Positions 1,983-15,366 of a stretch of 40,995 nt of DNA are shown here, in pieces. Position 1 is the first letter of the stretch. Every line of letters begins with the position of its first letter. This stretch comes from a virus. Under the pieces are notes generated by a model. It searched no databases. It was given only the letters and a program-made list of their open reading frames with translations, and was not told the origin of the DNA. A program made the position numbers and the translations under genes. The stretch spans positions 1 through 40,995 of the IMG/VR virus record IMGVR_UViG_3300002835_000411; one strand, 5' to 3'.

Positions 1983-2891
1983 ATGTTGGATGTTTTTAAT
2001 ATAAATAATAGTCTACTTAACCAAGTGTTTTACAATAAAGGTGTTAACGCATGGCAAGTATGGCATAAACCATCTAACTGCAATTTTGTACACTTTTATA
2101 TATTAGGTGGTGGTGCTGGTGGACAAGGTGGCCCAACTGGTGCTGGTTCAACTAGAACTGGTGGTGTTGGTGGTGGGTCAGCTGCGATGTCTTATATTAC
2201 AGTACCAGCGTTTGCTGTTCCAAATATGTTATACGTTCTTGTAGCTTCTGGTGGTACTGGTGGTGCTTCTGGTAGTGGTAGAGGTGGTGTTGGTGGTTTG
2301 TCTTATGTTTCTACACAACCAGATAGTACATTCTCACCTTATACTGTATTAATGCAAAGTGGTATTGGTAATGCTGGTGCTGCGACATCAGCAACAGCTG
2401 GTGCTGTTATAACTTCAGCTAATATAGTTTTAGCTGAAATAGCATTTTTATCAGCGTATGCTGGTCAAACTGGTGGTGCTGGTGGTGTGTCTTCTGGTGC
2501 TGCGGCTAACGTATCACCAAATGGTTTACCTACAACAGCTGGTGCTGGTGGTGCTGGTGTGTCATCAGTTTCTATTTTAGGTACATCTGGTAGTATTTTA
2601 TCAATATTAGATTTCCCTAGAATTGCTGGTGGTACGTCAGCTGCATCTGCTGGTGCTACTCGTGGTGGTGATGGTTTTTCTACTAGACAAAATTTTGTAG
2701 GACCTAATTTTAAATATCCTATGTTTTTTACTGGTGGTGCTGGTGGTGGGTCATCTGACACTGGTGTTGGAGCTAATGGTGGTAACGGTGCGTTTGGCTG
2801 TGGAGGCGGTGGTGGAGGTGCTGGTGGTAACGTAACTGCTGGTTCTGGTGGAAACGGTGGTGATGGACTTGTAATAATAACAGCTAGTTAA
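1983..2891 (+). CDS. Glycine-rich tail adhesin, copy 1
   Basis: The first of three consecutive paralogues. A short N-terminal head (MLDVFNINN, then W-x-KPSN) leads into FVHFYILGGGAGG. About 250 residues of Gly-Gly-X and Gly-Ala-Gly repeats follow, and it ends with GGDGLVIITAS. The pattern fits the glycine-rich domain seen in phage tail-tip adhesins, where polyglycine-II sandwiches display variable loops; T-even gp38 adhesins are a known example. The non-glycine loops differ strongly between the three copies while head and tail are conserved, as expected for receptor-binding loops. Host receptor binding is inferred. Confidence 0.75.
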   Translation: MLDVFNINNSLLNQVFYNKGVNAWQVWHKPSNCNFVHFYILGGGAGGQGGPTGAGSTRTGGVGGGSAAMSYITVPAFAVPNMLYVLVASGGTGGASGSGRGGVGGLSYVSTQPDSTFSPYTVLMQSGIGNAGAATSATAGAVITSANIVLAEIAFLSAYAGQTGGAGGVSSGAAANVSPNGLPTTAGAGGAGVSSVSILGTSGSILSILDFPRIAGGTSAASAGATRGGDGFSTRQNFVGPNFKYPMFFTGGAGGGSSDTGVGANGGNGAFGCGGGGGGAGGNVTAGSGGNGGDGLVIITAS

Positions 2892-2903
2892 TAGATAAAT
2901 AAC

Positions 2904-3887
2904 ATGTTAGATTTTTTTAATATAAATGATGGTAGTGCCAATAAAAGTATTTTTTATGCTAATGGTCCAATGTATGTTACATCATTATCGGCTATAACAC
3001 AAACAGCTTTTCAAATATGGCAAAAACCTAATGGTGTTAAATTTGTTCATTTTTTTGTAATGGGTGCTGGTGCTGGTGGTGGTAATTCTTCAAATGCTAC
3101 TGTTAATGCAAAAGGTGGTGGTGGTGGTGGCTCAGCTGGTCATGTTACTGGTTTATTTTTGGCTAGTGTTTTACCAGATACATTATATATAAATGTTGGT
3201 GTCGGTGGTGTTGGTGGTGGTGGTATTAGTGGTACTCAATCTACTGGAAACGGTGGTGATGGTTCTGGTGGAAACGGTGCTTTATCTTATGTAATGATAT
3301 ATCCAGATACTGGTTTTACTGCGACAAATGTGGTTTTACAAAGTGGTTCTGCTGCTGCGGTTGGTGGGAGAACTGGTGGGTCAGCAAGTACTAATGGTCA
3401 AGCTGGAACTGTATGGACACCTACTGGTAATCTTTTAAGTAAATTAGGTTTAGTTTCCGCTTATGCTGGTCAAGCTGGTGTTGCTGGTGTTACTAGTGGT
3501 GTTGGAGCAAATCTTTTAATATCTGGTATAACAACTGGTGGTGGTGGTGGTGCTGGAACAAGTAGTAGTGTACCTTTTAATGGGGGTAGTATTATAGGTT
3601 ATGGGAATGTAATACCAACAGTATCTGGTGGTACTTCAGCTTCCACACTTACTACTAGTGGTACTAGTGGTTATATGTTATCAATACCTAACACAGTTGG
3701 TATGGCCAATAACCCAATGTTTTTTGCTGGTGGTGCTGGTGGTGCTTCTAGTAGTGTTGCTGGTGGAAGAGGTGGTAACGGTGCGTTTGGTTCTGGAGGC
3801 GGTGGTGGTGGCGGTATTTCATCTGGTAGTAATAAAGGTAGTGGTGGTAGAGGTGGTGATGGTATTGTAATAATAACTTGTTGGTAA
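2904..3887 (+). CDS. Glycine-rich tail adhesin, copy 2
   Basis: Paralogue of the preceding gene, starting 12 nt after its stop. It begins MLDFFNIND, carries W-Q-KPNGVKFVHFFVMGAGAGG about 45 residues in, and ends GGRGGDGIVIITCW. The interior is Gly/Ser/Thr/Ala-rich with long GGG runs. It is slightly longer than copy 1 (327 versus 302 aa) because of an N-terminal insertion (SIFYANGPMYVTSLSAI) and different loops. A tail-tip receptor-binding role is inferred from composition and context. Confidence 0.75.
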   Translation: MLDFFNINDGSANKSIFYANGPMYVTSLSAITQTAFQIWQKPNGVKFVHFFVMGAGAGGGNSSNATVNAKGGGGGGSAGHVTGLFLASVLPDTLYINVGVGGVGGGGISGTQSTGNGGDGSGGNGALSYVMIYPDTGFTATNVVLQSGSAAAVGGRTGGSASTNGQAGTVWTPTGNLLSKLGLVSAYAGQAGVAGVTSGVGANLLISGITTGGGGGAGTSSSVPFNGGSIIGYGNVIPTVSGGTSASTLTTSGTSGYMLSIPNTVGMANNPMFFAGGAGGASSSVAGGRGGNGAFGSGGGGGGGISSGSNKGSGGRGGDGIVIITCW

Positions 3888-3898
3888 TTTTTAATAAA

Positions 3899-4840
3899 AT
3901 GATAGATATATTCAATCTTCCTAGTAATGAACAAAATAGTAAAATATATTATGCTCTTTCTTCTGGTAGTACAAAATGGCAAACATGGCAAAAACCTAAT
4001 GGTGCTAAAATGGTTCACATTTATGTATTAGGTGGTGGTGGTGGCGGTGGCGGTGGTAGAACTGGTGCTGTTAACACTGGTACTGGTGGTGGTGGAGGTG
4101 GTTCTACAGCTATTTCTATTGGTTTATTTCCAGCATGTATGTTACCAGATATATTATATATAAGTGTCGGTAAAGGTGGTGCTGGTGGTGCAGCAAATAC
4201 TTCTGGAACTGCTGGAGAATTATCTTATGTTAGTGTTTCAGCATCAACTCTTAGTGCAGCTACTGTAATGCAAAGTGGTGCTGCTGGTGCTGGTGGTGGT
4301 GGAGCTGGTGGTTCTTCCGTAGCTGGTACTGCTGGTGTTGCTGGTACTATTTGGACATATACTAGCACTATTTGGGCTCAATTGGGACAAATAACACCGA
4401 CTGTTGGTCATGCTGGTACTCTTGGTGGTAGTACTGTTGGTGCTGGTGTTAACTTAACTTTACAAAATGTAGTTTCTGGTGGAGCTGGTGGTGGTGGTGA
4501 ATCTTCAAATGCATCATCTTTTAAAGGTGGTGATATAACTAGTACACTATATGGTTTTACAACACTTAATGGTGGAGTAGCTAACGCTGCTGACTCTACA
4601 ATACATGGTAATCATGGTTACTCTTATTCATTTCCATCTTCTAATTCATTTAGTAGAGGACCAATGTTATTTACTGGCGGTGCTGGTGGTGGTGGTGCTA
4701 ACACTACATCTAGAGATGGTGGTAGAGGTGGTAATGGTTCATATGGTTCTGGAGGTGGAGGCGGTGGTGCAGCTTATGGTGGTACTGGTGGTCGTGGTGG
4801 TGACGGTGGTGGTGGATTAGTGATAATTACTACGTGGTAA
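3899..4840 (+). CDS. Glycine-rich tail adhesin, copy 3
   Basis: Third paralogue. I place the start at the ATG at 3899, giving MIDIFNLPSNEQ, because that aligns with the MLDVFNI and MLDFFNI starts of copies 1 and 2. The in-frame ATG at 3878 would overlap copy 2 and add seven unrelated residues. It carries W-Q-KPNGAKMVHIYVLGGGGGG and ends GGGGLVIITTW. It meets the minus-strand regulator gene tail to tail with one base between their stop codons. Function is inferred as tail-tip receptor binding. Confidence 0.75.
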   Translation: MIDIFNLPSNEQNSKIYYALSSGSTKWQTWQKPNGAKMVHIYVLGGGGGGGGGRTGAVNTGTGGGGGGSTAISIGLFPACMLPDILYISVGKGGAGGAANTSGTAGELSYVSVSASTLSAATVMQSGAAGAGGGGAGGSSVAGTAGVAGTIWTYTSTIWAQLGQITPTVGHAGTLGGSTVGAGVNLTLQNVVSGGAGGGGESSNASSFKGGDITSTLYGFTTLNGGVANAADSTIHGNHGYSYSFPSSNSFSRGPMLFTGGAGGGGANTTSRDGGRGGNGSYGSGGGGGGAAYGGTGGRGGDGGGGLVIITTW

Positions 4841-7990: not shown

Positions 7991-8386
7991 ATGAAGATAA
8001 TTAAAATTACGGCAGAGCAATTTAATAGATTACTTTTAAAAGAAGCTAGTGAGAAGAAAGTAACATTTAATTACTCAATTGAGATGATATTGGCTATGGG
8101 TAAAATATTAGGATTAGAATTAAAAAATTATAATCTAGAAGTAGCTAATAAAGAATTAAAACAAGAGTCAACATACACTAAAATCAAACTTATTTTAGAT
8201 GATAAAGAAGAGTTAAATAAGATAATTGAAGATTTAGTAAATAAAGGGTTGATTGATGCCGATAAGAAATTTAAATATGATGCTGAAAAGATTGTAGACA
8301 ATTATAATTCAATATCAAAAGAAAATGGTTTTGAATGTAAACTTAAACATTCTGAAGTAATAAATAATATTTTAAAAAATAAATAA
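7991..8386 (+). CDS. Hypothetical protein with an ITAEQF-type N-terminus (131 aa)
   Basis: Unknown function. The product is Lys/Glu/Asn-rich and probably mostly helical, with no membrane segment. The N-terminus, MKIIKITAEQFNRLLLKEAS, resembles that of the 534-aa protein at 11027 (KIVITESQFKRL...IKEE) although the rest of the two proteins is unrelated. The tag ends in L-K-E/A, which fits the (L/I)-x-E cleavage pattern of T4-type prohead proteases. A virion-targeting or processed leader is therefore conceivable, but this is inference. It lies between sheath and tube genes, with its own upstream terminator and a candidate late element. Confidence 0.65.
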   Translation: MKIIKITAEQFNRLLLKEASEKKVTFNYSIEMILAMGKILGLELKNYNLEVANKELKQESTYTKIKLILDDKEELNKIIEDLVNKGLIDADKKFKYDAEKIVDNYNSISKENGFECKLKHSEVINNILKNK

Positions 8387-8477: not shown

Positions 8478-8966
8478 ATGGCTGATTTATTGATGAAAAT
8501 GCCCTTACCATACGAACCTAAGAAAAAGAATCGTTGGTTATTAACTTTCCCAGCAGATTTAGGTATCCAACAATGGTGGTTATCAACTGCTTCTAGACCT
8601 TCAATTACTCAAAATGAAGTTGAGATTCCTTTCTTAAATACTTCTACATGGGTTATTGGTCGTTTTACATGGGAATCAATTGATGTAACTTTCCGTGACC
8701 CGATTGGACCTTCTGCTGCACAAGCAATTATGGAGTGGGTTCGTTTACATTCAGAATCTATTACTGGTCGTCAAGGTTATGCCGCTGGTTACAAACGTCC
8801 AGTTGACTTAGAATTACTTGACCCAACTGGGGTTGTTGTTGAGAAATGGTTGTTAGACGGAACAATGTTAACTAACGTATCTTTTGGTGACTTAGGTATG
8901 GATGATGACGGTATCGCTGAGATTACTGCGACATTACGTTTCGATAGAGCAATATTATTATTCTAA
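8478..8966 (+). CDS. Tail tube protein (T4 gp19-like)
   Basis: Stacked rings of this protein form the rigid inner tube through which DNA passes. At 162 aa it matches T4 gp19 (163 aa). Recognisable features are RWLLTFPADLGIQQWWLSTASRP near the N-terminus, FTWESIDVTFRDPIGPSAAQ in the middle and the strand-rich end LDGTMLTNVSFGDLGMDDDG...ATLRFD. Both the IDVTFRDP and the C-terminal GIAEITATLRFD segments are hallmarks of the tube fold. It is a single-gene unit with a candidate promoter upstream and a strong hairpin terminator downstream, consistent with high-level late expression. Confidence 0.93.
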   Translation: MADLLMKMPLPYEPKKKNRWLLTFPADLGIQQWWLSTASRPSITQNEVEIPFLNTSTWVIGRFTWESIDVTFRDPIGPSAAQAIMEWVRLHSESITGRQGYAAGYKRPVDLELLDPTGVVVEKWLLDGTMLTNVSFGDLGMDDDGIAEITATLRFDRAILLF

Positions 8967-9433: not shown

Positions 9434-10702
9434 ATGGATAAAAAACCAAATGTTTTCCCTCAAAGAGAACAACCACAAGTCAATTTAACTGATGCTGAAA
9501 GAATAGCTAATTTCGAACAAGAAAAAGCTATGGCTACTAATGAAATTTATGAAAATTCAAAAATATCAGATGAATTAAGTTACGCTCACAAAAATGCTGT
9601 TGAAATGATGAAGCAGCGTACCCAAGAACAAATTCAAAGAAAAAATTACGAAGGTATGGTTATTGAACCACAATTATCTGAAAACGCACCTAAAAAAGTA
9701 GATAATAATGCAGATTTAGTACGTAAAAGAGATGAACAGTTAAGAATGAATCAACAACAAACTCAAAATTATCAAAATATGTATGAAGAATCATACAATA
9801 GAGTAAGTAATAATAATAATAATAGTAATATGGAACAACAAAATAGGGTGACTAATACGCCACCGCCACCAACACCGCCATCAGTGCCGCCAGTTAATAA
9901 TTCGTATGAAAACTATGGTCAAAATCCTAGTAATATTGACCCACATATTTATGAATTAAGTCAACCTAATTATAACGCACCATTTGATTTAATTCCTTTA
10001 CCGTCAAGAGGTAAATTATATAGAAGTAAAAAACCTAATATTAAATTAGCTTATATGACTACTGCTGATGAAAATATTTTATCATCACCAAACTTATTAC
10101 AAAGTGGTCAGTTTTTGGAAATATTAATGAATAGAAAAATATTGGAACCAGAAATTAGATATAAAGATTTAACTATTGGTGACAGAAATGCTATCATGTT
10201 ATGGTTAAGAGCGACTGCGTATGGTGAAATGTATCCAGTAACAATTTTAGATGAATTGGGTGACCCATTTGAAACTGAAATTAATTTAAATGAACTTAAA
10301 GAAAATGAATTGGTTGCAGAACCAGATGAAAAAGGTGAATTTTTATTTGAATTACCGATAACTAAAAATGTAATTAAATTTAAATTTTTAACATGTGGTG
10401 ATGTTGATGATATTGAAAGAATATTAGAAAAAGAAAGAGAAAGAAATGTTTTAGTTAATAACGCTTCGACTTATAGATTAGAAAGACAAATTGTTGAAGT
10501 TAATGGAAACAGAGATAAAAGATATATTCAAGATTTTGCTTCATCATTAAGAATTGCAGATGCTAAGGCATTTAATACGTATGTTGAATCAATTGAGAGT
10601 GGCATTGACCTAAATATCAATGTGGCGACCCCAGGGGGAGGGTCTGTCGCTACCTTTCTTCCCCTTAGCGTCACATTTTTTTGGCCTAACATCCGACTAT
10701 AA
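9434..10702 (+). CDS. T4 gp26-like baseplate hub / tail assembly protein
   Basis: Residues 1-180 are charged, Gln/Asn-rich and low-complexity, with NNNNN and a PPPPTPP linker. The folded part starts at LPSRGKLY (189-196). Later segments are LTIGDRNAIMLWLRATAYGE, ELPITKNVIKFKFLTCGD and, at the end, TFLPLSVTFFWPN. This matches the T4 gp26-type baseplate family, although the CxxC zinc ligands common in relatives are absent. Gp26 helps assemble the hub. The gene lies between tail tube and tape measure, where many phages encode paired tail-assembly chaperones with programmed frameshifting, and its 3' end overlaps an open +1/-2 frame (10614-10967). A frameshifted longer product is therefore likely. 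The last 64 bases of overlap are unusually GC-rich. Confidence 0.75.
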   Translation: MDKKPNVFPQREQPQVNLTDAERIANFEQEKAMATNEIYENSKISDELSYAHKNAVEMMKQRTQEQIQRKNYEGMVIEPQLSENAPKKVDNNADLVRKRDEQLRMNQQQTQNYQNMYEESYNRVSNNNNNSNMEQQNRVTNTPPPPTPPSVPPVNNSYENYGQNPSNIDPHIYELSQPNYNAPFDLIPLPSRGKLYRSKKPNIKLAYMTTADENILSSPNLLQSGQFLEILMNRKILEPEIRYKDLTIGDRNAIMLWLRATAYGEMYPVTILDELGDPFETEINLNELKENELVAEPDEKGEFLFELPITKNVIKFKFLTCGDVDDIERILEKERERNVLVNNASTYRLERQIVEVNGNRDKRYIQDFASSLRIADAKAFNTYVESIESGIDLNINVATPGGGSVATFLPLSVTFFWPNIRL

Positions 10703-10967
10703 ACCTATTTTATTAGAAGAGATTTACATATGTACGCAATACTTAAAGAATGTCACATATAATGACGTTTTATCAATGCCTACATATGAAAGAAGATTCT
10801 TTTTAAATATGTTAATAAAAGAGACCAAAGAGAAAGAAGAACAAATTGAAGAATTAAAAGAAAAAGAGACTAATAGTAAAAACACTGGAAAAGGTAGTAG
10901 AGAAACTAGAGTTTCTGGTGAGTCATTAAAAACACAAATGAAAAATGGTATGATACCGTTACAATAA
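10620..10967 (+). CDS. Frame-shifted C-terminal extension of the gp26-like protein
   Basis: This frame is +1 (or -2) relative to the gp26-like gene and overlaps its 3' end. The nominal ATG at 10620 would give MWRPQGEGLSLPFFPLA, which is unlike a natural N-terminus. The convincing protein begins about where the upstream stop lies: YKPILLEEIYICTQYLKN, then VTYNDVLSMPTYERRFFL and a Lys/Glu-rich coiled tail. The xxDVLSMPTYERRFF pattern resembles small T4-type hub-assembly proteins. I infer translation by ribosomal frameshifting from the upstream gene. Independent initiation, or a sequence error fusing two genes, remains possible. A terminator follows immediately. Confidence 0.6.
   Translation: MWRPQGEGLSLPFFPLASHFFGLTSDYKPILLEEIYICTQYLKNVTYNDVLSMPTYERRFFLNMLIKETKEKEEQIEELKEKETNSKNTGKGSRETRVSGESLKTQMKNGMIPLQ
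10625..10682 (+). promoter_or_regulatory. Candidate programmed frameshift signal
   Basis: The segment 10621-10670 is 32/50 G+C, far above the surroundings. It contains a hairpin with outer stem GCGAC (10625-10629) / GTCGC (10646-10650) and inner CCC/GGG pairs. Three slip sites could move ribosomes into the downstream frame: GGG-GGA-G (10634-10640, -2), CCC-C (10661-10664, +1) and a run of seven T (10676-10682, +1 or -2). An in-frame stop just before 10614 in the destination frame and TAA at 10700 in the source frame bound the window. Confidence 0.5.
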
Positions 10968-10968
10968 G

Positions 10969-10991
10969 TCCCCATTTTAATGGGGATTTTT
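10969..10991 (+). terminator. Rho-independent terminator
   Basis: Stem TCCCCAT / ATGGGGA with a TTTA loop and a T run, two bases after the stop codon of the frame-shifted extension. Confidence 0.85.
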
Positions 10992-11002
10992 GTTTTTTGT
11001 AA

Positions 11003-11026: not shown

Positions 11027-12631
11027 ATGAACAAAAAAATAGTTATAACTGAATCACAGTTTAAAAGACTTAGAAATCTAATTAAAGAAGAATTATTATT
11101 GGAAGATAAACTTTTCAATCAAATATCTGCTATATTCCGTAATGTTGAAATCAAAAATGAAAATGATGCAAAGACTTTATTGTCTAAGCCAGAAAGCAAA
11201 CCTTTATTTACATACATTGAGAACGCAGTTAATAATTCATTAAATGCTAGAGTACCAAAACAAAAGGCTGAGTACATTAAAACGCTTAAAAATAGGCTAA
11301 AATCTATATTTAAAATGCAACAAAAACCAGATGATGAAGTATTAACTATTCTTGCTGACGTTTTAAATGGTTATGCTAAAATTAAAAATGTTAATAACTT
11401 TGAAAACATTGTTGAAATGTTAAAACAAGCCAACACATCTGGTGACCAATCAACAAAAGCAAAATCAATAGATGATTTACTTAATAGACCAATGGGTCCA
11501 TCTAATCAACAAAACCAAGAACCTAATGATAAGTCAGCTGCTGCAAATGGTGAAGAACCAAAAACTGAAGTTAATCAAATGATTTATGATTTTGTTCAAG
11601 TTTTAAATGAATTAAAAGAAAATGATGTTTTAACTATTAAGTTACCTAGAATGGAAACAATGAAATTAAAATGTGTTGATAATAAATCTAAATACAGCAT
11701 TTTTTTCACTTTAGCTGATAATGAGGACACTGCAACAGAAAAAATTGAGTTTCCTAAAATACCAGAAAAATATAAATTTAACGAAGATAGTCCAGTACCT
11801 AATTTTGATGTTATGTCAGTCGAATATATTAATGATGAAGGTGTTATAACTAAAAAGAAAGAAATGGTTCAAGGTATTTATGAGTGGGATATTGCTGTAG
11901 GTGATGGTGATGAAGAACCGACTGAAGAATTATCAACGGATGAAATTGAAAATGAAATTGAAGACCCAAATGTAACTGTTGAAGAATTTATTGACGATAT
12001 GATGAATGATGATAATAGTGCTAGAAATAGAAGTGCTTTAGCATTATATAATCGAATTAAAAAAGATAGAGACTTTATGGAGGTTCAAGGTGGTAAAAAT
12101 CCTTCATTCTTAAAGTTATTATTCGCTAATTTGGCTGGTAAGAAAGTTGAAGCTAAAAGAGGTAATATCCCAGTTTTAGCTAGTACTGCTCAATTCTTTG
12201 ATGATAGGATAACTAATAAATTAGGAGAAAATTTTATAGAAAACAAAACAGTGTTTTTTAGACCGTTAGAAAACATAGAATTACCATATGTTGAACTTAA
12301 ATACGACTTTACAGATAGAACACGTAAACCAGCTGCTAAAGTTTTCGAGTTAAAAGCTAATTCAGATTATAAATTTAAAGAAGCGGTAAAAGTAAAACAA
12401 TTTTCAATTGATGAGTTAAAGTATGGTGAGTACAGAGTATTGGAAAACGCATATTATCAATTTAGAATTATAGTTAAAGAAAAAGGAACGCAAGAAAATA
12501 CTTTTAATTGTGATGTTTTCAAATATTATAAAGATGGTGGTGGTAATCAAAAAGTTTCAAAAAAATCAAACGTTTTAATAGAATTTTTGGATTCTGATGG
12601 TTATAAAACAAATAAAACTAATACAATTTAA
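11027..12631 (+). CDS. Hypothetical tail-cluster protein with an ITESQF N-terminus (534 aa)
   Basis: Unknown function. The N-terminus, MNKKIVITESQFKRLRNLIK followed by EELLLED, shares its pattern with the 131-aa protein at 7991. Residues about 30-140 look helical and charged. A Gln/Asn/Pro-rich linker (about 150-185) and an acidic region (about 290-325, many Glu/Asp) follow. A more globular, aromatic-rich C-terminal half ends in KTNKTNTI. No enzyme motif or membrane segment is visible. It is cotranscribed with the tape measure gene (start 2 nt after its stop), so a tail-assembly or tube-interior role is likely. The acidic, flexible middle would suit an assembly factor or an ejected protein, but this is inference. 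Confidence 0.65.
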   Translation: MNKKIVITESQFKRLRNLIKEELLLEDKLFNQISAIFRNVEIKNENDAKTLLSKPESKPLFTYIENAVNNSLNARVPKQKAEYIKTLKNRLKSIFKMQQKPDDEVLTILADVLNGYAKIKNVNNFENIVEMLKQANTSGDQSTKAKSIDDLLNRPMGPSNQQNQEPNDKSAAANGEEPKTEVNQMIYDFVQVLNELKENDVLTIKLPRMETMKLKCVDNKSKYSIFFTLADNEDTATEKIEFPKIPEKYKFNEDSPVPNFDVMSVEYINDEGVITKKKEMVQGIYEWDIAVGDGDEEPTEELSTDEIENEIEDPNVTVEEFIDDMMNDDNSARNRSALALYNRIKKDRDFMEVQGGKNPSFLKLLFANLAGKKVEAKRGNIPVLASTAQFFDDRITNKLGENFIENKTVFFRPLENIELPYVELKYDFTDRTRKPAAKVFELKANSDYKFKEAVKVKQFSIDELKYGEYRVLENAYYQFRIIVKEKGTQENTFNCDVFKYYKDGGGNQKVSKKSNVLIEFLDSDGYKTNKTNTI

Positions 12632-12633
12632 TA

Positions 12634-15366
12634 ATGGCTAAAAGTAGAAAACAAATAGAAGAAGAAGCTAGGATAGTCTTGCAGATGCTTGAAAAACAAG
12701 TTAATCTGCAAAATTCAGTAAATAGTAGTTATGACAAATACATTGAAGCTGTTAAGAAATATAAAGATATTCAAGCAACTTTAACGAAATCTATTGAACT
12801 AGAAAGAATTACTAGAAAAAAGATTTTAGACCATCAAAGTGGTGTTAATGTATTGTCAGCTCAACAATTAATTGAAGAACAGACTAAATTAAAAATTTTA
12901 GAAAAACAAAACTTCCAATTATCACTTCAAAGAAAATTATATAAAGATACTTTAAAAGAAGTTAACGCAATGAAATTAGCGTTAGCTGATTCTGTTTTAC
13001 CTACTTTAAAAGCTTTGGAAAAAATTCCAGGACTTTTTAAAGGTGCTTATAGTAATCTTAAAGGGTTAGGGTTATTTGAAATGGACAAGGCGATGAAACA
13101 ATCAGCTTTATCTATGGGTATCCTAAGTAAAGAGTCTGGTGGTTTCAGAGGTTCTATTATATCGGCATCAAAACAAACTGCTATTTTAGGTATTGGTATT
13201 AAAGAATTATCTCAAATACAAGCACAATATAGTGAAGGTGTAGGTACTACAGCTTTAATGTCTGAAAGGACCTTAAAAGCGTTAGGAGAGATGGCTGCTG
13301 CGACTGGGTTAGGTGCTGAAGGTACAGCTCAAATGGCTGTTGATATGAGAAACCAAAACGTTTCTGCTGAAAACACAGCAAAATTTGTGGAACAAACAAT
13401 GAATAGTTCTCATAAATTGGGTGTTGATGCTTCAAAGGTTGTTAAATTAGTTTCTAAAAATATTAAAATGCTAAACAAATATAACTTCAAAGATGGAGTT
13501 AAAGGTTTAGCTAAAATGGCACAAACAATAACCAAATTGGGTGTTGATATGGAATTTGCTGCTGGTTTTGCTGATAAACTTTGGGATGTTGAGGGTGCTG
13601 TTAATATGTCTGCTCAATTACAAGTTATGGGTGGTGCATGGGCTCAATTAGCCGACCCTTTCCATTTAATGTATATGGCTCGTAATGACATGGCTGGGTT
13701 AACGGAAGAAATTGGTAAGGCTGCTGAGCAATCAGTTGTATTTAATAAGAAAACTGGTCAATTTGACATGCCAGCAAAAGAAATGCATAGACTTAAAATT
13801 ATTGCCGAACAAACTGGTATTGCTTATGATGATTTGGTAACTGCTGGTAAGAATGCTAAGAAATTTAGTATGATTAACGCTCAAGTTAATTTTGATTTTG
13901 GTGGTGATAAAGACCTTAAAGAATATGTTACTAATAAATCATTCTTAGATGAAAAAGGTGACGCTAAAATTGTTTTAAATGGTGAGACTAAGTTACTTAA
14001 AACTTTATCTCAACAAGATAAAAACATATTAAAAACACAAATGCAAGAACAAGCTTCATTAAAGGCTAGAGCTCAAGAAGCACAATCATTTGATGAAACA
14101 TTATCAAATTTAATTATGCAATTGAAAATATATTTATTACCTTTGATAACTAAATTAAGCGACCCTAAAAAAGGTTTAGTTGCTAAATTGCAAGATTTCT
14201 CAGAAAAAATAAATAAAAAAGGTGGTTTAGGTGAAACTATCTCTAAATTAGCTGGTATTGTTGGTGATTTCGTGGCTGGTGTTGCTAATTTCATGGTTGA
14301 AAACCCAATGTTAGTTGCTGGTATTGCTGCATTTACTAAATCTATACCGTTGTTGATTGGTGGTATTAAATTATTTGGTGGTCTTTTTAACGCTGTTAAG
14401 TGGTTTATGAATGGTTTGGCACTATCTAAAGGATTTATGGTTGGAACTGGCGGTATGGGAGGTGCTGGTGGTGGCGGTATGAGAGGTGCAATGAATAGTA
14501 TAGGTGGTGGAACTGGTCAAATAGGTGGTGGTTTATTCGGTATGAGAAATGCTGGTGCTATGAGTAGAATGGGATTAGGTACTATGGGTAAAATAGGTGC
14601 TAACTTTAGAGGTGCTGCTGGTTCGGCTGGTGCTATCGGTGGTGGTCTATTGGCTGGTGGTATAGCTGGTTTTGGTGAATATGGTGAACAAAAAGAAAAA
14701 GGTAAAGGTACTGGCGAAGCTGTTGGTAGAGGTGTGTTAAAAGGGTTAGGTGCTGGTGGTGGAGCATGGGCTGGAGCTGCTGCTGGAGCTGCGTTAGGTA
14801 GTGTTATTCCAGTAGTTGGTACTATTATAGGTGGATTATTAGGTGGTGCTATTGGTGGTATGGCTGGTGGTAAATTAGGTGATTTAGATACTTATGGTGT
14901 TGATGATGCTATATTCACAAACCCTATAAATGATGGGTTCAAAGCTACTGGTCCTGGAGAAATGTTATCAAAAGCTATGGGTAAAAAATTTGGTTCTAAT
15001 CATTCAAAAGGTAATGGTATAATGACTAATGGTACTGTAACACCGATACATAACGCTGATAAAGTAAAGGCAATAATGGCTAGTAAACCTGGAGGTGGAA
15101 TTGATAGATATGAACGTGACATGTTTAAAAATTCATCTAATTCAGAACAAAAAGGAGTGAATAATTCAACTAAACATAGTTTTGAACCAATAAATGGTAG
15201 TATAACTGTTGAAATTCCTGGACTAAATAAATCTTTTAGTGTTGAAGATAAAGACGCTATGTTTGAAAGTTTAAAAGAACAATTAAAAAGGAAAGTTACT
15301 GAAGATGTGACAAATACAAGAGTTAAAAATAAAAATGGAGGTAAAACAAAACCAACTTATTCATAA
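12634..15366 (+). CDS. Tail tape measure protein
   Basis: Sets tail length and occupies the tube before ejection. The first 120 residues are a charged coiled coil (KQIEEEARIVLQMLEKQ, then SYDKYIEAVKKYKDIQ). A long helical region follows, then hydrophobic segments at about residues 545-580 (VENPMLVAGIAAFTKSIPLL) and a Gly/Ala-rich stretch at about 605-755 including AGAALGSVIPVVGTIIGGLL. These are typical of tape measures, whose hydrophobic parts may enter the host membrane. At 910 residues, an extended helix would span roughly 135 nm. Location downstream of tube and gp26-like genes fits. No peptidase or transglycosylase motif was seen in it; those lie in the hub protein. Confidence 0.88.
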   Translation: MAKSRKQIEEEARIVLQMLEKQVNLQNSVNSSYDKYIEAVKKYKDIQATLTKSIELERITRKKILDHQSGVNVLSAQQLIEEQTKLKILEKQNFQLSLQRKLYKDTLKEVNAMKLALADSVLPTLKALEKIPGLFKGAYSNLKGLGLFEMDKAMKQSALSMGILSKESGGFRGSIISASKQTAILGIGIKELSQIQAQYSEGVGTTALMSERTLKALGEMAAATGLGAEGTAQMAVDMRNQNVSAENTAKFVEQTMNSSHKLGVDASKVVKLVSKNIKMLNKYNFKDGVKGLAKMAQTITKLGVDMEFAAGFADKLWDVEGAVNMSAQLQVMGGAWAQLADPFHLMYMARNDMAGLTEEIGKAAEQSVVFNKKTGQFDMPAKEMHRLKIIAEQTGIAYDDLVTAGKNAKKFSMINAQVNFDFGGDKDLKEYVTNKSFLDEKGDAKIVLNGETKLLKTLSQQDKNILKTQMQEQASLKARAQEAQSFDETLSNLIMQLKIYLLPLITKLSDPKKGLVAKLQDFSEKINKKGGLGETISKLAGIVGDFVAGVANFMVENPMLVAGIAAFTKSIPLLIGGIKLFGGLFNAVKWFMNGLALSKGFMVGTGGMGGAGGGGMRGAMNSIGGGTGQIGGGLFGMRNAGAMSRMGLGTMGKIGANFRGAAGSAGAIGGGLLAGGIAGFGEYGEQKEKGKGTGEAVGRGVLKGLGAGGGAWAGAAAGAALGSVIPVVGTIIGGLLGGAIGGMAGGKLGDLDTYGVDDAIFTNPINDGFKATGPGEMLSKAMGKKFGSNHSKGNGIMTNGTVTPIHNADKVKAIMASKPGGGIDRYERDMFKNSSNSEQKGVNNSTKHSFEPINGSITVEIPGLNKSFSVEDKDAMFESLKEQLKRKVTEDVTNTRVKNKNGGKTKPTYS

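Follow-up and report, generated by a model that had tools for sequence, protein, structure and literature searches.

A conserved T-run and a probable +1 frameshift linking short and long tail-assembly chaperones in relatives of phage T4

The window analyzed here, a viral DNA stretch of 40,995 nucleotides (nt) from IMG/VR record IMGVR_UViG_3300002835_000411, contains a gp26-like open reading frame (ORF) whose 3' end overlaps a second frame, displaced by +1 (or −2), that runs on past its stop codon. From comparison with related phages, we conclude that this is very probably the tail chaperone locus of a T4-type contractile phage, in which a +1 slip at a T-run yields a short form of 422 residues and a long form of 510 residues. 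An earlier note on this DNA had proposed a programmed +1 or −2 frameshift like those of tail-assembly chaperones; the comparison strongly supports that proposal and favors the +1 step.

Relatives were collected in three rounds: the window protein as the query gave 7 viral loci plus 6 phage records, an alignment of six proteins added 80 loci, and one of three immuto-like proteins added 80 more. The +1 frame was scored as open when it overlapped the gp26-like gene by at least 20 nt and stayed open for at least 120 nt beyond the gp26 stop. Among the 161 gp26 relatives that were untruncated at the overlap, 158 had an open +1 frame, compared with 17 of 364 other long ORFs of the same loci; the remaining three (L025, L028, and L040) had an open −1 frame instead, and their run at the T-run position is T9CCC. 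The description in the earlier note of a gp26-like frame overlapped by one that continues as conserved protein was thus borne out, and the interval that it gave for the overlap was exact. The same overlap is found in Microcystis phage Mel-JY01, in Flavobacterium immuto phages, and in a 484-kb uncultured phage genome, and its sequence is identical in contigs L001 and L002. Between the window and L003, 11 of the 12 nucleotide differences within the first 50 codons of the extension fall at third positions of the +1 frame, and the 12 differences change one amino acid only. These comparisons demonstrate conserved dual-frame coding, with the +1/−2 frame as a genuine coding sequence.

Comparing the slip site across phages, as the earlier note had proposed, we tabulated T-run variants in 155 relatives and counted loci less than 85% identical to each other as independent. 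Read in frame 0, 76 loci have TTT TTT TGG, 47 have TTT TTT CGN, 17 have TTT CTT TGG, and the others have rarer forms such as TTC TTT C (L065 and L090) and TTT CTA (L010). The independent loci comprise 63 with TTTTTTTGG, 40 with TTTTTTCGN, 14 with TTTCTTT, 2 with TTCTTTC, and 1 with TTTCTATTC. All slip variants permit cognate or near-cognate re-pairing one base forward, by tRNA-Phe or, as in release factor 2 (RF2), by tRNA-Leu; the codons were read directly from the sequence, and their re-pairing follows established decoding rules. In 14 loci, a +1-frame stop precedes the T-run by 2 nt, and in others by 8 nt, and the frame-0 stop is mostly found 18 or 24 nt past the first base of the run, so that the shift would have to occur on or just after the T-run. 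This places the slip site of the window at the T-run (10676-10682). All three candidate slip runs listed in the earlier note are present in the window, and T7 is the conserved one; the G-run with GGGGGAG (GGGGGAGGG, 10634-10642) and CCCC are both 5' of it, outside the region in which the +1 stops of the relatives permit the shift, and both were rejected as general slip sites. The window has neither a G-run slip of the Mu type giving the −2 frame nor a canonical −1 signal (an X XXY YYZ heptamer with an open −1 frame): the in-frame sequence is A UUU UUU, and the −1 frame, which overlaps the gp26-like gene by 10 nt, is closed 14 nt past its stop.

The bases around the T-run bear the marks of selection. 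A T directly before the run occurs in 2 of 127 independent +1-class loci, against an expectation of 75%, the frequency at which comparable two-fold codons in these genes end in T rather than C. Since a T at this position would create the −1 heptamer U UUU UUU, its avoidance removes that signal. Codon −3 encodes Gly in 101 independent +1-class loci and is GGG in 77 of these, compared with 7% elsewhere in the genes. Complementarity to the anti-Shine-Dalgarno (anti-SD) sequence is maximal around codon −3, and in most relatives the SD-like GGG is located 3 to 6 nt 5' of the slip, a +1-type spacing. On these counts, RNA-level selection at the slip site of the relatives is strong. The arrangement recalls the +1 frameshift of RF2 (prfB), including that of Flavobacterium, in its YUU U slip and in the SD-like element a few nucleotides upstream in most relatives, whereas the window itself has no SD-like GGG. 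In RF2, the SD-like element adjoins the P codon and promotes +1 slippage, and the site is kept in Flavobacterium johnsoniae (PMC8710568).

The protein products also fit a chaperone pair. The short form matched PF12322 (T4_baseplate) at 25.1 bits (cutoff, 24.5) and PHROG_150 (baseplate hub) at 1.1e-6. Against PHROG_150, the window short form scored 31.0 bits and the product joined at the T-run 39.1 bits (1.1e-9 for the long form), with the match extended from positions 22-216 to 22-282, the end of the profile; in L052, the joined product scored 55.9 bits and the short form 42.6 bits. T4 gp26 and T4 gp51 both match PF12322, and T4 gp51 reads as a natural continuous long form. As the joined product aligns across the junction with PHROG_150 and gp51 is a continuous long form, the short and long products are assigned as a tail-assembly-chaperone pair, for which we infer the chaperone role. 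The gene order is that of such pairs, with a short ORF and an overlapping extension between the tail tube and tape measure genes. The short form and the extension were folded as separate halves with AlphaFold2. The short-form model had a predicted local distance difference test (pLDDT) value of 88.8 over residues 173-422, and a search of a viral structure library with it retrieved T4-type baseplate hub proteins. The extension was predicted as helices (pLDDT of ∼93 across residues 11-60); its model had no match in the same library at E ≤ 0.001, and a cyanophage Gp51 at rank 8 (E of 1.1, template modeling score of 0.77 on target) is suggestive only. The extension alone had no tblastn match in the phage collection and no Pfam or PHROG family above threshold. 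Public annotations of L009 (MW353176.1, 150607-150717) and L008 (PP395634.1, 35980-36216) present part of the +1 extension as a hypothetical protein in its own right, and one of these annotations starts well within the conserved domain of the extension.

Several observations weigh against this interpretation. The P values for the avoided T (∼1e-42) and for GGG (∼1e-67) treat the loci as independent, apart from the 85% identity filter. The window clade (the window, L003, and L013-L022) lacks GGG at codon −3, and L006 (4842-5096), L039, and L059 keep the +1 frame without a TTTTTT run; near the gp26 stop of these three, the sole slippery-looking sequence is TTT CTT, further upstream. The hairpin predicted upstream of the slip site in the window has a z of only −1.3, and its helix is not conserved among relatives. 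On the protein side, the last ∼40 residues of T4 gp51 resemble the extension weakly (hhalign probability, 10%), and the top solved structure on realignment, the HK97 tail assembly chaperone 2ob9, is a weak match (Z of 4.8 over 79 residues; E of 2.9 by Foldseek alone). We regard the latter fold likeness as supportive and not as proof of a chaperone fold.

In the window clade, the G+C-rich, hairpin-prone stretch that ends at the slip site is a candidate stimulator. The G+C content of 64% over 50 nt reported in the earlier note was confirmed, and 0.07% of the 50-mers of the window reach it; the other clade members are also G+C-rich 5' of the T-run (0.43-0.58 versus 0.26-0.37 within the gene). An upstream hairpin adjoining a slip site is able to mimic an SD-like element (PMC6321510). 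Upstream structure as a conserved stimulator was not significant in the window clade (mean z of −0.65). The GCGAC/GTCGC hairpin to which the earlier note had drawn attention did not hold up as a conserved element, as it is lost in L003 and others and is not kept even in the 87%-identical relative; the consensus fold had just 6 pairs and no covariation gain. No downstream structure was detected in the +1 class (mean z of −0.2 to −1.0).

Of the other explanations, the one that survives best is a −2 shift on the T-run, or on the G-run as in Mu, which would reach the same frame with one extra residue. Such a shift is known in Mu (PMC5009743), and T7 and T6C both permit UUU re-pairing two bases back, which is a further point against a +1 step. 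At TTC TTT C and TTT CTA, however, −2 re-pairing needs a mismatch. The G-run on which Mu slips is excluded here as a general site by L010, in which the +1 frame is open for just 41 nt, and by the many loci with a stop right 5' of the T-run, and the short spacing of the SD-like GGG is that of RF2, a known +1 driver (PMC8710568). Because these two variants bar −2 re-pairing and the GGG spacing is of the +1 type, we favor the +1 step and consider a −2 shift improbable.

A separate gene for the extension, translated from an internal start or by reinitiation, is less probable again. The earlier note had seen no believable start in the +1 frame; a single ATG does exist (10620), yet it lacks a Shine-Dalgarno sequence and is 5' of the slip site, so that it would yield an unconserved N terminus, whereas the conserved part of the extension begins right at the slip site. 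Of 80 cyanophage-type loci, 53 have an extension-frame ATG close to the gp26 stop, and annotators name the product gp51, but 35 of 155 +1-class loci contain no +1-frame ATG, GTG, or TTG. RNA polymerase slippage on the T-run, giving mRNAs of altered length, is highly unlikely: T7 in the window and T9 in L025, L028, and L040 would suit it, but the same frame relation persists despite interrupted or 6-base runs in many relatives (TTTCTTT, TTCTTTC, and TTTTTTC), and the codon-level signals 5' of the run implicate the ribosome. A sequencing error, which the earlier note had raised as a one-base error, or a decayed gene would account for the frame break and nothing further, and it is refuted by the identity of L001 and L002 and by conservation in 158 relatives from many samples.

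We infer the slippage itself, its efficiency, and the +1 over the −2 step from these sequence patterns. In the +1 mechanism that we propose, most ribosomes would stop at the frame-0 stop codon and release the short form. In a fraction of them, the peptidyl-tRNA-Phe would move from one UUU of the T-run to the UUU one base further 3', with the following codon (UUU or UGG) still unread, and these ribosomes would then continue in the +1 frame to produce the long form with its helical gp51-type C-terminal domain. The probable forward push in most relatives is the SD-like GGG, in the manner of RF2. The roles of the two products may parallel those of lambda gpG/gpGT, with the short form coating the tape measure protein and tail tube subunits recruited by the long form. 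The lambda proteins are likewise a short and a long product with a shared N terminus, made by a frameshift between the tail tube and tape measure genes, and the C-terminal part of the long one adds a small domain. Lambda, however, shifts by −1; the present extension lies in the +1 frame, with a T-run as the slip site, and belongs to proteins of the T4 gp26/gp51 family (baseplate hub chaperones). Within that family, gp51 corresponds to the long form and gp26 to the short form, but the two versions are thought to come from two separate genes in T4.

Although the earlier note considered a frameshift unusual for a T4-type gp26 relative, the +1 arrangement is common to RM378, which has TTT TTT TGG and an open +1 frame, and ∼150 viral contigs, and −1 versions are present in other T4-type phages. 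P-SSM2, S-PM2, HTVC008M, phiM12, KVP40, and phiW-14 carry a homologous −1-frame extension, with U UUU UUC or U UUU UUU at the site; the match is significant in the first five of these phages and weak in phiW-14. The −1-frame loci are L180, L181, L183-L186, and L191-L270 (cyanophages, pelagiphage, KVP40, phiM12, and phiW-14); the annotations of P-SSM2 and KVP40 list the small gp51 as a gene of its own. The gp26 and small gp51 of cyanophages, pelagiphage, and KVP40 resemble the pair described here in being a chaperone pair with an overlap at the same end and a T-run slip. The cyanophage type differs in its −1 frame, its U UUU UUC heptamer, which adjoins the gp26 stop in 80 of 80 S-PM2-like viral loci, and its distant SD-like GAG GGN ∼10 nt upstream, with GAG enriched at codon −5 (18/29 versus 26%). 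It also differs in having strong downstream structure (z of −2.7), with, for example, hairpins of 14 bp in S-PM2 and 11 bp in P-SSM2 that differ from each other. In a tree of the N-terminal part, in which T4 and RM378 are long branches of unsure placement, the cyanophage-type phages are apart from the +1 clade, and L025, L028, and L040 fall within it. The T9CCC run of these three loci is near the gp26 stop (4802, 4811, and 4742, respectively), as a switch of shift direction inside the +1 clade. We think it probable that the T4-type chaperone locus has kept one T-run slip site whose direction flips by lineage: a large +1 clade, to which the window belongs, that has lost the preceding U and mostly carries a close RF2-like GGG, a cyanophage type that shifts by −1 with a distant SD-like element and a downstream hairpin, a switch to −1 in L025, L028, and L040, and a second gene in T4. 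In that case, the preceding base and the SD spacing would tell the direction.

The positions of the features of the locus are collected in Table 1. Directly after the extension stop, a hairpin (TCCCCATTTTAATGGGGA, 10968-10997) is followed by T-rich sequence and looks like an intrinsic terminator, by eye only. Two ORFs (7991-8386 and 11027-12631) open with a similar motif (KIIKITAEQFNRLLLKE and KKIVITESQFKRLRNLIKEE, respectively), and three tandem ORFs at 1983-4840 have N termini that are alike (MLDVFNIN, MLDFFNIN, and MIDIFNLPS) and are apparently paralogues.

Table 1. Features of the chaperone locus and its neighbors in the window (aa, amino acids)
Feature	Position	Strand	Details
Tail tube protein, 5' neighbor	8478-8966	+	phrog_4542, 2.4e-26
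Short form, gp26-like ORF, frame 0	9434-10702	+	422 aa, C terminus ...TFFWPNIRL; stop 10700-10702
+1/−2 frame, open	10614-10964, stop 10965-10967	+	Translation includes VTYNDVLSMPTYERRFF
Overlap of frame 0 and +1/−2 frame	10614-10702	+	86-nt overlap
Predicted upstream hairpin reaching the T-run	10621-10675	+	−22.9 kcal/mol; candidate role only
G+C-rich stretch immediately 5' of the T-run	10625-10674	+	64% G+C versus 31% for the window
Slip site, T7	10676-10682	+	Frame 0 is ACA TTT TTT TGG; after a +1 slip, GGC (10683) is next
+1-frame extension, gp51-type C-terminal domain	10683-10967	+	94 codons plus stop; GLTSDYKPILLEEIY...NDVLSMPTYERRFFLNMLIKE; long form 510 aa
534-aa ORF between extension and tape measure gene	11027-12631		
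Tape measure protein, 3' neighbor	12634-15366	+	phrog_794, 6.6e-10

Vladimirov et al. reportedly argued in 2022, to judge by the title, that T4-like phages use a mechanism that is not frameshifting. A 2016 review presents the G-T frameshift as widespread among long-tailed phages, T4 excepted, with −1, −2, or +1 shifts depending on the phage (PMC5009743). Later papers cite Vladimirov et al. 2022 for short and fused long forms encoded by separate genes (PMC10885494) and for −1 signals of the poly-T type in the chaperone genes of T4-like phages (PMC12846349); the −1 class may therefore already be known. A search of the open-access literature, which is a part of the whole, turned up no earlier account of the +1 class. 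A chaperone frameshift is of a known kind, and a +1 shift in a T4-type locus would be new. If true, T4 itself may be the derived case, as a large clade of its relatives would make the same pair by a +1 shift, and annotation would be corrected in the many phage genomes that overlook the extension or list it as a gene of its own. Related sites that shift in opposite directions would also form a natural series for comparing directly the roles of the preceding base, the SD spacing, and the downstream structure.
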